IMG/VR virus record: IMGVR_UViG_3300018476_000030
Location: 1 to 32,102 of that record
Strand: one strand, 5' to 3'
DNA length: 32,102 bases
From: a virus
The notes beneath the pieces were generated by a model, which searched no databases, was not told where the DNA came from, and was given only the letters and a program-made list of their open reading frames with translations. How positions within the stretch are numbered: position 1 is the first letter of the stretch; every line of letters starts with the position of its first letter. The translations under genes were made by a program, and so were the position numbers. This document shows positions 5,479 to 13,787 of the stretch, in pieces.

Positions 5479-8043
5479 TCACTGGCCTAATTGGCCGGCA
5501 GCGGCCCCCAGGTTGGGCCCTCGATTGGGCAGCTCCATGTTGCCGGTCGGACCCCACCAGAACTGGGTGCCGGTCTCCTTGCGGGCGCGCTGCTCGATGC
5601 GGCTGAAGGCGCCGCCGGCCTCGGGGTCCCACATTTTCTGCAGCGTGTCCCAGGCCAGGCGGTCGACGCCCAGTGACGTGTAGAACGTCCGGGGCAGAGC
5701 GTACTTGCGCAGGAAGTTGGCGCCCTCGCGGCCGATGTTGGTCTTCTCGCCGCTGAACGCCTGGTTGAGGTTGCCACCGACCAGAGCCGCGGTGTCGGCG
5801 ACAAGCCCGGCGGTCGGCGTCAGGGTGCGGGCGAAATCGGCCTTCGACTTGGTCTGCAGGAAGGTCTTGATCTGGTCGCCCAGCATGCCGCCGGCGCCGC
5901 CCATCGCCGCCGCCTTGAGCCAGAACTCCGGGGTATCCATCGCCTCGGGGTCCTTGCCGGATGCGATGTTCTTGAGCTGATAGGACAGCGCGCCGAGCGC
6001 GGTCGCCTCGATGGCGAGCGCCGCGAGGTACTGGCCGCGGGGCATGTAGCCCTGCTTGCCCATGATGTTGTCGATCGCCCGCCAGCCGTTGAACAGGGTG
6101 ACCGAGCCGACGAAGCCCTTGTACTGGAACGAGCGCAGCACCTCACCGACCAGGGAGCCAGCCTTGGTCTCGCCGAGCAGCATGGCGCGGGTGGTGACGC
6201 CGCCTTCCGGCACCGCGTACTTGGTCTCGGCGTCGATGGCGCCCAGCAGGCGGAGCGCCGGTTCGCGCTGGGCCGCCGTGCCGCTGTGCGCCAGGAAGGC
6301 GGGGTCCATGAACAGCTTCTCGCCGTGCATGGCGTGGACCCGCAGGACATCCCAGTCGGCGGCATCGATGCCGTAGCGCTGCAGCATGGCGCCGAGCCGA
6401 TCGGGCAGAGCATCGAAGTTCTTGCCGGCATGCTCGGCGAAGGTGGCTAAAAACTCGTTGCCGAGCGCGATGCGGCCGGCGTTGGAGTGATGCTCCAGGC
6501 CGGTAGCGCGCATGACGAACTCGGCCGCCTGGCCGCCGATGCGGGACATGCCGGCAGATGCCGCCTCCATGCCTTCGCCCGAGAACATGCTGCCGGGCTT
6601 GCCGATGTTGGCGTTCAGTGTCTCGTCGAAGGCGTCGCGCAGACCGCGCAGGCCGGTCTCGACCATTAGGCCCTGGCGCGTCGCCGTGCGCCGGCCTTCC
6701 GCCCCGCTCAACGAGCCCAGCGCCTCGAGGTAGCGGCCCATCACACGGGTTGAACTGAGACCATTGAACGCCGCCGTCGAACGCAGGAAGGCGAAGTCGG
6801 AGAAGCTCGACAGCACGGCGCCGCCCAACTGGACGGACGACAGCCACGAGCGCACCGCCTGGCCGGTGTTGGCCCAGGTGACGTTGGCCGCGGCGTGGGC
6901 CTGGCCTGACGAGTGGTAGTAGAGCTTCTCCAGCGCGTGCGTCTGGCCCTGGCTGATGCCGCCCTTCTGGCCGAACTGGACGAGGGTGTTGGCCATCTTG
7001 TCGGGATCGCCGCCGAGGATGCGGGCGGTGCCGAGGTCGAGCGACATCTGGTGGAGGTGGCGGCTGAACGCCTCGCCGAGATTGTCGGCGCCGTTGCCGA
7101 AGTCATCGGCGAACTTGAAGTAGGCGGTGTCGGAGGTCCACTCGAACACGCGGCGCTTGTTGTAGCGGTCGGCCATCGTGTCCCTGGTCGTCACGCCGGG
7201 CTCGATTGAGATATTGCCCTTGGTGGCGATGTTGTCGTAGGCGGTGCCGAGGATCTCCTTCACCAGGTCCTCGTCCTTCATCACACCTTCCTTGCGCCAG
7301 GTCTCGCCGCCCGGCTTGAACAGCGCGTCGTCGGCCGAGGAGTGGAAGTCGCGCAGGCGAAGGTCGCCCGATTCCCAGCGCTTGGTCATCTCGGCGACGA
7401 AGCCGTCGCGGCCCATCCCTTTGACCTTCAGCGTGTTGAACTGCTGCGGCAGGAAGTAGTCGGCGAGCTCGCGGATTTTTACGCCTTCCGCTTCCATGGC
7501 GCCGCGCCACCACTCGAGCGTCTTCTTCCACGCCGTGGCGTTCTCCTTGGCGCCGGGTGCTCCGCTCGACTTGCCCAGGATCTCCGACACGGTATGGCGC
7601 GGGGCGACGCGGTCGCGGCTCAGACCGAAATTGCTCGAGCGCAGATCCTCGAGGAAGTCGGTCAGCATGCCGCCCATGGTGCGGAAGACCGCCCGCTGCG
7701 AGGCGACCACCGAGTACTTGCCGCCCTCGCCGCGCACGCGCTCGCCAAGGATCGCCTGCAGGCCGCGGAACAGGCCGGCGCTGTTCTTGGGCGCGTCCTC
7801 CATCAGGCGCTGGGCGTGGAGGATATTGTGGGCGGCGGCCATCCTGTTGGCGCCGACCTCCTCAATCATGCGGCCCGCCGCCTTCGACACCGCGAAGGTG
7901 TAGGCGTCGGTGCCGCCCTTGCCGAGGGCCGCCGCTTCCTTCTCGGCGTCGGCAATGTGCTTCAACAGCTTGTCGGCCGTCGAGCGGGTGATCTTCTTGG
8001 CCGCCACGGCCTCGTTCAGGCAGTCGTCGTACATTCTGGCCAT
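5479..8043 (-). CDS. large internal virion (ejection) protein, gp16-like position
   Basis: 854 aa starting MARMYDDCLNEAVAAKKITR. The ATG at 8043 overlaps the TAA of the preceding gene (TAATG), so I prefer it to a start 8 codons upstream. The protein is mostly helical with amphipathic and glycine/alanine-rich hydrophobic stretches (for example LSSVQLGGAVLSSFSDFAFL and MGGAGGMLGDQIKTFLQ), as expected for proteins carried in the capsid and pushed through the cell envelope to form a channel. The C-terminal region (LPRTFYTSLGVDRLAWDTLQ, then FWWGPTG) resembles the tail of large core proteins in other podoviruses. Function rests on gene order (adaptor, nozzle, three internal proteins, tail fibre) and composition; no enzyme motif is visible. 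Confidence 0.7.
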   Translation of the reverse strand: MARMYDDCLNEAVAAKKITRSTADKLLKHIADAEKEAAALGKGGTDAYTFAVSKAAGRMIEEVGANRMAAAHNILHAQRLMEDAPKNSAGLFRGLQAILGERVRGEGGKYSVVASQRAVFRTMGGMLTDFLEDLRSSNFGLSRDRVAPRHTVSEILGKSSGAPGAKENATAWKKTLEWWRGAMEAEGVKIRELADYFLPQQFNTLKVKGMGRDGFVAEMTKRWESGDLRLRDFHSSADDALFKPGGETWRKEGVMKDEDLVKEILGTAYDNIATKGNISIEPGVTTRDTMADRYNKRRVFEWTSDTAYFKFADDFGNGADNLGEAFSRHLHQMSLDLGTARILGGDPDKMANTLVQFGQKGGISQGQTHALEKLYYHSSGQAHAAANVTWANTGQAVRSWLSSVQLGGAVLSSFSDFAFLRSTAAFNGLSSTRVMGRYLEALGSLSGAEGRRTATRQGLMVETGLRGLRDAFDETLNANIGKPGSMFSGEGMEAASAGMSRIGGQAAEFVMRATGLEHHSNAGRIALGNEFLATFAEHAGKNFDALPDRLGAMLQRYGIDAADWDVLRVHAMHGEKLFMDPAFLAHSGTAAQREPALRLLGAIDAETKYAVPEGGVTTRAMLLGETKAGSLVGEVLRSFQYKGFVGSVTLFNGWRAIDNIMGKQGYMPRGQYLAALAIEATALGALSYQLKNIASGKDPEAMDTPEFWLKAAAMGGAGGMLGDQIKTFLQTKSKADFARTLTPTAGLVADTAALVGGNLNQAFSGEKTNIGREGANFLRKYALPRTFYTSLGVDRLAWDTLQKMWDPEAGGAFSRIEQRARKETGTQFWWGPTGNMELPNRGPNLGAAAGQLGQ

Positions 8044-9967
8044 TACATCACCGCTCCCACGACGCACGAGACCGCCGTCTGGTATTCGCGTTCCTTGATG
8101 TCGAGGTCTTCCATCTTGGCCCGCGCCTCGGGGTCGACCTTGGCGATGGTTTCGCTGTCGAGCAGCGCCTTGGCCTGCTGCAGGACGGCCTTGTCTTCAG
8201 GCGATTCGCCCGGCGCCTTGGCCGCGGCAGGGCGGGCTTCCGGTTCCGGCGGTGCCGGCCGTGGCGCCTGCATGGGGTTGTAGGCACCGCCTCGAGCTTC
8301 GCCATCGCCGCCTTGACCGGCGCCTGGTCGGCGACGTCGAGGTCCATGATCTTGGCGAGCTCGCCGTTGAAGTCGTCGATCGCCTGCTGCCACGCCGCCC
8401 TGTCTTCCGGCGCCGCCTCGTCGCGCATGCGCTCGTACTCGGGGATCTGCTCCTGCAGTTCACGCACCCGTGAGACGTCCTCGGGCGAGAGCTTGCTCTC
8501 GACGCGGGCGAAGGTGTCGGCGGCAGCCGCCTCCGAGAGGAAGGTATCGGCCTGGGCGCGGGCGGCCTCGGCGGCGCGGGTGGCGGCAGTCACCTCCTCG
8601 CCGGCCCGCATCATCACCTTGTTGATCTCGGGAATCAGTTCGCGCAGTTCGAGGTCGGCCTGGGCCGCCTGCTGGCGCATGCTCTGGGAGACGGTGGTCT
8701 CTTCCAGCGGTTGCCCCGCCTCCATCGCTGCCTTGCGGGCGACCGCGTCGTCATGGATCAGGTGCGCCATGCGGGCAGAGGCGCCCAGCCTCTCGGCAAC
8801 CTCCTGGGTGGCGCCGCCGGCGTTGGCGATGGCTGCGTCGGCGGCGTCCGCCCGCTCCTTCAGCCTGGCGATGGTGGCGTCGTCGGGCGCCAGGGTGGCC
8901 CGCGCCTCGTCGCGCCACGCCACCGCCTGATCATAGCGCTGCATCAGCTCGGGCTCGAGCCGACGGGCCGCGTCGTGCAGGGTGGGGATGCCGGCATCGA
9001 CGTCGACGTTGGGCGAGGCCGCCCGGCCCAATGCTGCGGCCGACGTCGCCTGGTCGGTCGCCACCTCCATCTGGGCCGGGCTGATGCGCAGCGGGTTCTT
9101 GTTGCCGTAGAGGTTGGCCTCCTCCATGACGCGGGCCGAATCGAGCGCGGCCGGCGGGATCTCGACGCCCCGGCTGGCGAGCTTGAGGATGCCGAGGTGG
9201 GCCGCCCGAAAGACACCGCCCAGGAGGGCACCACCGGCGCCGGCCGAGATGATCTCCTCGAGGATCTGCGCGTTGGTCTGCTCGGTGCCGAACTGCTTGC
9301 GCGTGTTGAAGTCGACGATGGTCGCGAGCGACTGCGCCGCGGCCTGCGTTCCGCCCTGGAACAGCGCCTCCCTGGCAACGTTCTTGGCGAAGGCGGCGAC
9401 GCTTGCCTCGGCCACCGCCGTGCCCATGCGGGTCACCGGGATGAACGACGACATGATGCCGTGCGGGCTCACCGTCTCGCCGGCCATCGAGCCGAGGAAG
9501 CCGCCGAGGCCACCGCCGGTCCCGCTCATGCGCTCGTCGCGGGCGCGGGCTTCCCCGCTTTGAGAGGCGATCGAGGCGTCAATGCTGTCGACGTCGAGGT
9601 AGTCCTGCGGCAGGCCGCCCAGTTGCTCCATGCCGGCCTTGGCGTTGCGGGTTGCCGTGCGCAGCTTCTCGAGCCGCTTGGCGTAGATGACCGTGGTCGG
9701 CTGGCCGAGGTTCTCGCGGATCTCGTCGGAGGTCGGCGCATTGTCGTAGGGATTCTTGAGCCGCTCGCCGGTCATGGCGTGGAGGTCGTCGATGATCTTG
9801 TCGGCCCTGGTCCTGCGCGCCGTCTGGACGTTCCAGTAGCGGTCGTCGGTCTGGGCGGCCCCCCACGCCGCGCTGAAGCGCTCGCTGTTGGTCGACGGCA
9901 GGGCGCTGAGATCGGGCGTCGTCTGCGCGGTGTCGGCGGTGCTCTCCATCAGGCCGAGGACGCTCAT
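8043..9967 (-). CDS. internal virion protein, apparently frameshifted near its 3' end
   Basis: ATG at 9967 overlaps the previous stop (ATGA). The first 565 codons encode a helical, alanine-rich protein with a glycine-rich hydrophobic stretch (GGLGGFLGSMAGETV, SSFIPVTRMG) typical of ejection proteins. After codon 562-565 (VPTTP, about 8284-8273) the same frame becomes an arginine-rich nonsense tail ending at 8048. The -1 frame instead gives an ordinary sequence (MQAPRPAPPEPEARP, then EDKAVLQQAKALLDSETIAK and a VVGAVM end) whose TAA at 8043-8045 makes a TAATG junction with the next gene. A one-base correction at the C4 run (G4 at 8274-8277 on the plus strand) gives a 641-aa product. Whether this is an assembly error, a mutation or programmed slippage is undecided. 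Confidence 0.72.
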
Positions 9968-12900
9968 GGCGAGGCCCCGCCCGGCTCAGTCGGAACGATG
10001 ACGGGAATCCCTCGCGTCGTTCTCGGCATGGCCGGCGCGTTAGGCCGTGTCGGCACGTTCGACGTGTCGCCCCTGGCAATCAGCGGCTTGATGTCGACGA
10101 TCCACGGCTGGCCGGTGTTATCGTCGATCAGCTCGGCGCCGCGGCCCGACTTCAGGGGATCGGGAATGCGGACCTTGTACTTGCCGTCGCCGGCCGGCAC
10201 GAACTCGCCCTTCTGGCGCACGACCTCGGCGGTGATCGGCTGGCCCTGTGCCGTCGGCCGCAGGTTGGCGACGTCGGCCGCCGTGATCGCCGCGACGCCG
10301 TTCCTGAACTGGTAGGGCTCGATCTCCCGCGGGATGATCGTGGCCGCCCCGTTGTGGTCCATCGTCTTGCCAACGATCTCCTCGATCGCCTGGTTCAGTT
10401 TAGCCGTGACGATGCTCGTGCGATCGGGATTGCCCGCCGTCAGCGCCACGTAGTTGGCCATGATGGCGTTGTTCTGCAGGGCCACGGTCTCGGGCCTCAT
10501 GCCAGCCCGCGCCTGAACCAGCCTGGTGTCGATGGTCGACTGCAGAAGCTTGTCGTCGCCGATCCGGGTCTTGCCGTCCTGGCCGCCCTGGGTCAGCCAG
10601 GTCATGCCGGTGATGACGCGGTCGGCGATCTCTTTGTCGTTCGGCTGGCCACGGCCATAGAGGCCGAGCGCCGCCGCCATGGAGTCCGACACCACGTCCT
10701 TCTTCGACATCTGGTTGCCGATCAGGGCGATCGCCTCGGTCGGCACGGAGACGGCGAGCCTGGCCAGGAACTGCTGTTTCTCCTGGGGCTTCATGCCCTC
10801 GAGCCTCTGGGTGATCGAGCTCATCTCGTCGGGCGTGAAGAAGTTGTTCGGCAGGTTGGTGGTGCCGTCGCGGGTCACCGCCGCCACCCGGAGGTCGGCC
10901 AGGCGCTTGGTCGCCCACATCTGCAGGTTTTGGCCGTTCATGTTGATGTCGAACGACTGAAGCTGGATGCGGCCGATGCCCTCGGTCGCCCCCAGCGGGT
11001 TCTTGTCCCAGTTTTGCCGGTTCGCCTCCTCGTTCTTGTTGAGGAACCGCAGGGCCTCGGACTGGGTGCGGGTGATCGGTAGCCCCAGTTCCTGCTGGTT
11101 CTTGATCTTCTCCTCGAGTTCGCGAGTCTTCCTCTCGCGGTCGAGCGGCGGCAGCTTGGAGTCCCTGAACCCCTCGACTGCTCCCACGAACTGCTCGTGG
11201 AGTGCCCTCGCCTTCCGGCGATCGCCGGCCGCAAGGGCATGGTCGATGGCGTCGTCCATGTTGCGCTCGAAGGACCTCGGATCGCCACCGGCGGCGATGC
11301 CGTCGTTGTAGGTCTTCTCCGCATCGGCCGACGCCTTCAGGTTATCGATGCGGTTCTGTGCCGCCAGGCGCCGCGCCTCGGTGAGATCGGCTGTATGCTG
11401 GGCATGTTGCTGGGCCGCTATCTTCCCGCCGGCACCGGGCAGCAGCATGCTGGCAGCAGATCGCTGTTCCGGCGGGTTCTTGGCGTCCTCGATCAGCTGG
11501 CTCTCCTTGTCGGCCAGGACCTGGAAGGTCGCCGCACTCGAGCCATCGCCGGTCGCCGTGAACTGGTCGGCAATCGTCTGGAACGTGCCCGGCTTGTACT
11601 TGCCGGTACTGAGGTCGATGCCGGCCTTCTCCGCCGCGTCGGCCGCCGACTTGCGCTGCTCGCGGACGATGGCGTCCTGGTTGCCCATGCGCTGGTCGAT
11701 GATCGACAACTGTCGCGCCTTGATCTCGGGATCGATCTTCAGGTTGTTGACGATCGACTCCCGGTACCTGAACTGGGCGATGCGCGTCTCGGCGTGCTGG
11801 TCGCCGCTTGGCTGCTGGGGGGTCGAGGCTGTCGATTGCCAGATCCCCACCGTCTCGGCGATGGAAGCCGGCGGCTTGCCCCACGTCGCCCGCGGGCCGC
11901 CGCGTGTATCGACGTGCAGATGGCCGGCATAGAAGCCGATACCGCCGACCCGCGGATCGGACAGGAATTGATTGTAGACCTTGAGCTTCTGTTCCTCGGT
12001 CAGGCCGGCGAGCGAGATGTCGATCGCCTTGCCCGGCGACAGGTGCTGGCTGCCGGTGGCGCCGCCCACTGCCTTGTTATGGTCCGGGTCACGGTCGGCG
12101 CTGGTGATCGTCAACGGGAAGCCGAGTGACTTCTCGGCATCGGCACGCACGCCGCCGACATCACCGCCCGTGCCGCCGCCCATCGTCGGCATGTTGATGG
12201 AGACGTCTCTCTCGGCCGTGACCTGCTTGGTGCGGTCGGCCGCCATGACGCTCATCGCCCTGGTGTCCTGGGCGTTGAGGCGGCCCTTGGTCGCCTCGAA
12301 CAGGGCGAGACCCGACTGCATGTCCTTCTGCATCGCGATTTCGATCTTGGTGCGATAGACGTTCGAGCCGAAGTCGACCTTCATCTTCGCGGCGACGTCG
12401 GCGCCGAGCCAGCCGCCGGCGACGCGGCCGTCGATTGCGTCGTTGGCTTGCTGGATGATCATCTCGGTCAGGCGCGGGTCGGCGGCATCGACCGCCTGCT
12501 TGTTGTACTGGTCGATGTTGCCGATCAGCTTGCCGACCTGGTCCTTCGACTCCAGGCCGAAGGCGGCGTTCTGGGTCGCCGCCCGGCGCATCGCGATCTG
12601 GTTGGGCAGCGCGGCGTCGACCGCGGCGCGCACCGTCGGGTTGACGTCCATCGCCGCGAACTCGTCGCGTATCCTGGCGGCGCGGGCGTCGTAGTCCTCG
12701 GTCGCCTTCTGCCGGTCGGCGATCTTGGAGGACTCGAACTCGGCCTCGTGCAGCTTCTTGGACAGCTCGGCCTGGTGGTCGGCCGCGTTGACGTTGAGCT
12801 TGGCCTTGACGTACTGCTCGGCGAACTGCTCGCCGTAGGCCGCCAGCTTCTCGCCCGAGCGCTGCGCCGACTGGTAGGCCCCGGCCTCGATCGACGCTGC

Positions 12901-13026
12901 CGATCCCAGCGCCTGCGAGGGGTCGGCGGGAGCGCGGATGTCGACCTGCGGCGAGACACGCGGCTGCGACCCGCCGGTCGAGGGAACGGCGCCGGGGCTC
13001 GTGACGATCTGCGGGATGACGGCCAT
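9964..13026 (-). CDS. internal virion protein with M15 peptidase domain
   Basis: 1020 aa, ATG at 13026 in a TGATG overlap with the previous stop. Residues about 290-385 match a zinc-dependent M15 (VanY/D-Ala-D-Ala carboxypeptidase-like) domain: TSADRDPDHN, then GSQHLSPGKAIDIS with the His (about 328) and Asp (about 336) ligands, and GHLHVDTR with the final His (about 371). This is probably a virion-associated peptidoglycan-cutting activity that locally opens the wall during DNA entry. The rest is long, charged and helical (for example QYVKAKLNVNAADHQAELSK), fitting a core protein. The position corresponds to T7 gp15/gp16, where a different muralytic domain is used. The role in entry is inferred from family and position. 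Confidence 0.82.
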   Translation of the reverse strand: MAVIPQIVTSPGAVPSTGGSQPRVSPQVDIRAPADPSQALGSAASIEAGAYQSAQRSGEKLAAYGEQFAEQYVKAKLNVNAADHQAELSKKLHEAEFESSKIADRQKATEDYDARAARIRDEFAAMDVNPTVRAAVDAALPNQIAMRRAATQNAAFGLESKDQVGKLIGNIDQYNKQAVDAADPRLTEMIIQQANDAIDGRVAGGWLGADVAAKMKVDFGSNVYRTKIEIAMQKDMQSGLALFEATKGRLNAQDTRAMSVMAADRTKQVTAERDVSINMPTMGGGTGGDVGGVRADAEKSLGFPLTITSADRDPDHNKAVGGATGSQHLSPGKAIDISLAGLTEEQKLKVYNQFLSDPRVGGIGFYAGHLHVDTRGGPRATWGKPPASIAETVGIWQSTASTPQQPSGDQHAETRIAQFRYRESIVNNLKIDPEIKARQLSIIDQRMGNQDAIVREQRKSAADAAEKAGIDLSTGKYKPGTFQTIADQFTATGDGSSAATFQVLADKESQLIEDAKNPPEQRSAASMLLPGAGGKIAAQQHAQHTADLTEARRLAAQNRIDNLKASADAEKTYNDGIAAGGDPRSFERNMDDAIDHALAAGDRRKARALHEQFVGAVEGFRDSKLPPLDRERKTRELEEKIKNQQELGLPITRTQSEALRFLNKNEEANRQNWDKNPLGATEGIGRIQLQSFDINMNGQNLQMWATKRLADLRVAAVTRDGTTNLPNNFFTPDEMSSITQRLEGMKPQEKQQFLARLAVSVPTEAIALIGNQMSKKDVVSDSMAAALGLYGRGQPNDKEIADRVITGMTWLTQGGQDGKTRIGDDKLLQSTIDTRLVQARAGMRPETVALQNNAIMANYVALTAGNPDRTSIVTAKLNQAIEEIVGKTMDHNGAATIIPREIEPYQFRNGVAAITAADVANLRPTAQGQPITAEVVRQKGEFVPAGDGKYKVRIPDPLKSGRGAELIDDNTGQPWIVDIKPLIARGDTSNVPTRPNAPAMPRTTRGIPVIVPTEPGGASP

Positions 13027-13787
13027 CAGAAGCTCGATCCAACGCCACTGGTCTGGCCGACGCCGGTCGGCAGACGCGCAGTGGCCTGAGAGTTGGTGGC
13101 TGCGGTGTCGCCGGTGGGCGTCGCCGTCTGCGGTCCAGGCGGGAAGGCCTTGACGGCCATTTCGCCGACCTTGGCGAGCCCGGTCAGCAGGGTCGTGCCG
13201 GCGCCCATGGTGGCCGCCTCGGACGCCGCCGTGCCGCCGGCATAGAGCGCCGCCGCGCCGATCTGGGCGGACTGCCGCTCGGCCACCGCCATCGCCCGGT
13301 AGATGGTCGCCTGGCTGTGCGCCGCCTGGGTCTCGAACTTCGCCTGCTGGCGGATGTCGCCGGCCTGCACCCTGGCGCCGTAGACTGCGAGGTTGGCCTG
13401 CAACTGGCCCTCGGTGGCGATGTCGTTCAGGACCCACAGCGAGGAGCCGCCCGACACCCCCGACGCCCCGTAGGCCGCCGTTGCCCGGCCCATCACCCGC
13501 GAGGTCGAGCGCGAGATGATCTCGGCCTGCGCCGCCGCCTCGGCCTCGACGCGGTTGGCCCGCGCCATGGCGAAGCCTTCGTTGGTCGTTGCCGCCCACT
13601 CGGTCAGGCCCGCCTTGTACTCGGCGATGGTGGCGTTGGTCTCGCCCCGGTAGGTGACGCCCGCCGCCTGGATGCCGGCCGCCCGGTTGGCCGCCACCCC
13701 CTGCTGCTGCTGGGCCATGGCCGACCCCGCCGAGCCGGCCAGCGAGGTGACCATGCCGGCGATGGCAGAGATGCTTGCAGCGTCCAT
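13026..13787 (-). CDS. internal virion protein, gp14-like
   Basis: 253 aa. The N-terminus (ISAIAGMVTSLAGSAGSAMA) is small-residue-rich and weakly hydrophobic, followed by a long alanine-rich helical region (about 60-180) and a hydrophobic patch (AALYAGGTAASEAATMGAG). The C-terminal 40 residues are Thr/Pro/Gly-rich and probably disordered. Size, composition and place directly after the nozzle gene match the first ejection protein of T7-like virions (gp14 role: forms the outer-membrane part of the entry channel). The assignment is positional; there is no diagnostic motif. Confidence 0.68.
   Translation of the reverse strand: MDAASISAIAGMVTSLAGSAGSAMAQQQQGVAANRAAGIQAAGVTYRGETNATIAEYKAGLTEWAATTNEGFAMARANRVEAEAAAQAEIISRSTSRVMGRATAAYGASGVSGGSSLWVLNDIATEGQLQANLAVYGARVQAGDIRQQAKFETQAAHSQATIYRAMAVAERQSAQIGAAALYAGGTAASEAATMGAGTTLLTGLAKVGEMAVKAFPPGPQTATPTGDTAATNSQATARLPTGVGQTSGVGSSF

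Follow-up and report, generated by a model that had tools for sequence, protein, structure and literature searches.

Where the protein encoded by gene A ends, and whether its recorded C-terminus belongs to it, is the question raised by this locus. The window (the whole stretch of DNA analysed, an IMG/VR virus record of 32,102 nt) carries gene A as an open reading frame whose residues 1 to ~562 are correctly framed and whose last ~75 residues are out of frame and Arg-rich. The coding frame switches near 8280, and the -1 frame continues to a TAATG junction (8045-8041) with the next gene, gene B. The following features are concerned:

8048-9967, minus strand: gene A as recorded, a 639-aa reading frame for an ejection-type protein in the slot of epsilon15 gp16
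8043-8280, minus strand: -1-frame segment that very probably encodes the genuine C-terminal end of protein A, sharing 62% identity with the tail of the close relative (dN 0.28, dS 0.71)
8048-8050, minus strand: TGA ending the out-of-frame product, 4 nt ahead of the gene B start codon
8041-8045, minus strand: TAATG junction, in which the -1-frame stop (8045-8043) overlaps the gene B start (8043-8041)

Past ...LEAVPTTP, the recorded frame reads PCRRHGRHRRNRK... and contains 33% Arg, whereas the median for in-frame stretches of 74 codons from the genes of the window is 5% and no stretch exceeds 14%. The -1 frame reads MQAPRPAPPEPEARPAAAKAPGESPEDKAVLQQAK...SCVVGAVM and a stop, leading into TAATG, and is of ordinary acidic/Pro-Ala composition. 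The codon-position pattern of G+C content changes frame in the interval from about 8290 to 8230, and a codon-usage scan placed a phase change there too. Since 14.5% of the +1-frame stretches of 74 codons in the genes of the window are also open, it is unremarkable that the recorded frame stays open over this length. That the Arg-rich sequence represents a genuine, new C-terminus with selection of its own is extremely improbable: the 74 open codons and a stop 4 nt before gene B, with translational coupling that could survive, agree with such a role, but open frames of this length are not unusual here, the Arg content is far beyond that of genuine genes in the window, the codon usage is that of the -1 frame and the conserved cysteine of the family (see below) would be removed.

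The sole close relative found, IMGVR_UViG_3300011445_000068, resembles the window in having homologues of gene A (body 68% identical) and gene B (76%) joined by the same type of junction, but differs in that its gene A is a single uninterrupted frame of 631 aa, which reads LEAAPSNPMQAPRPAPPEP...GCVVGVL and is followed by a TGATG junction at the place occupied by TAATG in the window. When the intact A protein of the relative was used as a query, the window was matched in two frames, with residues 1-560 at 8264-9967 and residues 554-630 at 8052-8285. Because the relative reads without a break into a tail of the -1 type, the Arg-rich tail was taken as an out-of-frame read-through, and it very probably has no function of its own. 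In the tail, the -1 frame showed a dN of 0.28 and a dS of 0.71 relative to this virus, while dN exceeded dS in the other two frames; the -1 tail was thus a selected protein end until recently. The upstream body of gene A is under similar constraint (dN 0.25, dS 0.50). Searches with the A proteins of the window and the relative against 50,697 phage records (tblastn) gave no match. Viral and genome contigs scanned with gene A or its tail yielded only this relative; two pattern hits (L008 and L010) were rejected as chance matches.

Together, the relative, the codon-position G+C and the codon usage bear out the original prediction that the frame is broken in an ejection gene. Its product lengths (639 and 641 aa) are both correct, the TAATG end of the -1 frame is confirmed, and its view of the -1 frame as normal sequence and the real C-terminus agrees with the 62% identical tail of the relative. 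As to homologues carrying the Arg-rich tail, the one close relative examined has the -1-frame tail instead. It is therefore highly probable that the record lacks one nucleotide in gene A near 8280 and that the -1 frame encodes the ancestral, selected C-terminus. An automatic annotation of gene A gives a credible-looking protein of 639 aa whose C-terminus is wrong.

The position of the lesion was estimated by sliding a single gap along the alignment with the relative:

8271-8287, minus strand: frame-break region from the gap scan, with the best single gap between 8281 and 8280
8274-8277, minus strand: C4 run on the coding strand, at least two mismatches worse than the best gap site

A gap between 8281 and 8280, 3 nt ahead of the C4 run, left 6 mismatches, compared with 8 or more for gaps in or at the run. 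There is thus moderate evidence, drawn from one relative, that the missing base would fit best between 8281 and 8280, with 8271-8287 as the possible range. The C4 run, which had been proposed as the site of the slip, does lie at 8274-8277 but is probably not the exact place; C/G runs of four or more occur 173 times in the window. No other frame break was found in a codon scan from ~3.2 to 26.8 kb (about 23 kb of coding sequence), and a comparison at the protein level from 5.5 to 18.3 kb likewise detected only the break in gene A, which was therefore regarded as an isolated indel. The codon scan also suggested a second change of frame near 13080, but this was rejected as an ordinary TGATG gene junction.

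Among the causes listed in the original prediction, a sequencing slip and a mutation were both retained, whereas programmed slippage was disfavoured. A slip in sequencing or assembly has about an even chance of being the source of the indel. A recent mutation in the sampled phage is quite possible, if short of an even chance, and since the false stop (8050-8048) lies only 4 nt ahead of the gene B ATG (8043), coupling to gene B would survive such a mutation. Programmed -1 ribosomal slippage at AACCCCAT, giving rise to a -1-tailed product, whether minor or major, would be in keeping with two open frames whose ends lie within 5 nt of each other and with selection on the -1 tail. It is nevertheless very unlikely, because no X_XXY_YYZ heptamer is present (the zero-frame codons are CCT ACA ACC CCA TGC), the pseudoknot-free fold of the RNA downstream is ordinary (z-scores of -0.59 and -0.03 compared to shuffled sequences) and the one close relative reads through in a single open frame without a shift; moreover, the best gap precedes the C run, and the intact slot-equivalents examined elsewhere encode the cysteine tail in a single frame. 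It is also barely conceivable that the gene is split, so that translation of A stops in the wrong frame and the -1 tail is started independently at 8273-8271, where an ATG opens the tail exactly past the break: this ATG is preceded only by a weak GAGG about 16 nt upstream, and its counterpart in the relative lies inside a single reading frame.

The genes around the break are arranged, in the order leading to the tail fibre, as a tail protein gene (phrog_376), a 253-aa gene, an M15-peptidase gene, A, B (phrog_684) and the fibre gene:

13026-13787, minus strand: 253-aa gene in the slot of a small internal protein, whose end, an ordinary gene junction, looks in the codon scan like another frame shift
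9964-13026, minus strand: upstream gene with an M15 peptidase domain and no cysteine, probably starting at a TGATG junction
5479-8043, minus strand: gene B, a phrog_684 virion structural protein of 854 aa in the slot of epsilon15 gp17, with exactly one cysteine

Gene B matched the phrog_684 profile over positions 11-829 of 840 (E = 6.3e-103). The succession of hydrolase, A, phrog_684 B and tail fibre is that of gp15-gp16-gp17 in epsilon15 (Salmonella phage, Uetakevirus) and recurs in phiV10, BcepC6B, DVV SI2, VP2 and others. The window shares with epsilon15 gp16/gp17 and the other phages with phrog_684 a peptidoglycan-hydrolase protein, A and B before the tail fibre, but differs from epsilon15 in that the gene upstream of A encodes an M15 peptidase domain rather than a lytic transglycosylase, that A has no detectable similarity to gp16 and that the frame of A is broken in the record. 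No detectable sequence similarity was found between the A protein of the window and epsilon15 gp16 or other proteins of that slot, and phmmer and hhalign comparisons of A with six slot-equivalents gave nothing significant; the A proteins of the window and the relative also failed to match phrog_1145 or phrog_3003. Gene A was therefore placed by position and not by sequence family: it occupies the epsilon15 gp16 slot, and membership in phrog_1145 or phrog_3003 is not claimed. The gene order supports its earlier assignment to an ejection-protein cluster, and we infer that A is a putative ejection protein of a short-tailed phage. The longest reading frame of the peptidase gene starts at 13599 (GTG), and an automatic call may make the gene too long; translation probably begins at the ATG at 13026, within TGATG (13024-13028).

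While the frame break by itself is ordinary, the comparison of tails exposed a pair of lone cysteines that matters more:

8064-8066, minus strand: codon of the only cysteine in protein A (seventh residue counted from the C-terminus), present only in the -1 frame
8020-8022, minus strand: lone-cysteine codon of protein B, residue 8 (MARMYDDC)

In the A proteins of 18/18 named phages and the close relative (390-956 aa), exactly one cysteine is present, located 3 to 8 residues from the C-terminus. The window obeys this rule only in the -1 frame, as the recorded, out-of-frame product contains three cysteines, none of them near the end. The B proteins have exactly one cysteine, at residue 4-12, in 20/21 cases (counting the B protein of ZCVPP1 from an internal ATG), the exception being TPWB-05 with a second one. 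The single cysteine near the A C-terminus and the single one near the B N-terminus are also features of epsilon15 gp16/gp17 and the phrog_684 phages. Phages added later, including two uncultivated ones, fit as well, with the A cysteine 2 to 10 residues from the end. In all, the pair was noted in the window and at loci L015-L032 and L034-L138.

The pattern was then evaluated on an independent sample of viral contigs. For these, the search patterns excluded the B N-terminus, so that the B cysteines found there are independent evidence; for the genomes, the pattern included the B cysteine, which makes the B cysteines of that scan non-independent. Among the 66 loci of the viral scan with A adjoining B, the rule was kept by 65/66 A and 66/66 B proteins, and the A rule was obeyed by 0/136 control reading frames of at least 300 aa. 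At the exception (L101), the frame picked before B encodes a cysteine-rich product of 376 aa unlike A, and no A was identified. Both proteins also obey at nine further loci in which A lies 326-1654 nt from B, and the cysteines are kept in ZCVPP1, where the distance is 2889 nt. Among 26 non-redundant A clusters, from which L045, L046, L086 and L101 (broken or odd reading) and L050 (B start trimmed by BLAST; the protein has Cys5) were left out, both rules held in 26/26, and the upstream hydrolase-type gene lacked cysteine in 21/26. Either TGT or TGC is used as the cysteine codon in both genes, and the constraint therefore acts on the protein. As a pattern in these sequences, the lone-cysteine pair is well supported. 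This two-residue signature spans phages whose A protein shows no detectable similarity to that of the window, and it can be used to identify A and to check the integrity of A-B loci.

Because the partner proteins each keep exactly one cysteine, at the ends that face each other, a bond between A and B was considered the best explanation. The lone C-terminal cysteine of A and the lone N-terminal cysteine of B may form an interchain disulfide, either within the virion or on reaching the oxidising periplasm, which would join the end of A to the start of B in a trans-envelope channel. The chances that such a bond exists are evenly balanced, and the same holds for its extension to a broad group of short-tailed phages (epsilon15-like, Vibrio VP2-like, Pseudomonas, Burkholderia and others), in which the ejection proteins A and B would be joined end to end and the covalent hinge would fix their order through the tail or lock a trans-periplasmic channel in the oxidising periplasm. 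There is a less than even but substantial chance that the cysteines serve another role, such as homodimer (A-A or B-B) bonds, metal binding, lipidation/acylation or a packaging signal; the sequence data speak for conservation and not for chemistry, and cysteine is scarce in A and the upstream gene product in any case. Against such roles, a bond between two chains would best account for ejection proteins that are otherwise nearly cysteine-free, each with a single cysteine, one at its C-terminus and the other at its N-terminus. No relative of A or B was found among solved structures (PDB), and AlphaFold models of single chains were of low confidence, both for the A protein of the relative (pLDDT 48) and for a family A protein with 15 sequences (pLDDT 61, pTM 0.43). 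A search of the open literature returned no mention of an A-B disulfide.

In T7 (gp15/gp16) and P22 (gp20/gp16), two large internal proteins encoded by neighbouring genes are ejected to form a trans-envelope conduit (PMC8954989, PMC8402733), and A and B would resemble them as a pair of large internal proteins encoded side by side. The cysteine count is zero in T7 gp15 and gp16, in P22 gp7, gp20 and gp16 and in SU10 gp20-gp24; T7 gp14 has one cysteine, at residue 2. As the T7 and P22 pairs are devoid of cysteine, a covalent disulfide of the A-B type is not possible there. In crAss001, disulfides stabilise the tail assembly of a short-tailed phage (PMC10172136), but, unlike the proposed A-B bond, they connect tail hub and ring proteins and not ejected ones. 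For DNA delivery by podophages, the covalent joining of ejected proteins and a dependence on the disulfide machinery of the host become directly testable.

Several loci deviate from the usual layout. Gene A is split into several frames in Pseudoxanthomonas sp. NC8 (L046, 2952-5498) and truncated in one viral contig (L086, upstream of 5034). The Bordetella phage BPP-1 protein bbp10 (L134, 6187-12345, 2052 aa) sits where A and B would be; it was rejected as an A-B fusion, having no match to the B profile and no cysteine pair. A and B are non-adjacent in some Pseudomonas-type prophages (L034, L038, L063, L065, L069, L074, L080, L082 and L114) and in the Vibrio phage ZCVPP1 (L014, 3101-5903). Small extra genes lie between the separated A and B genes (326-2889 nt), and both lone cysteines are retained.
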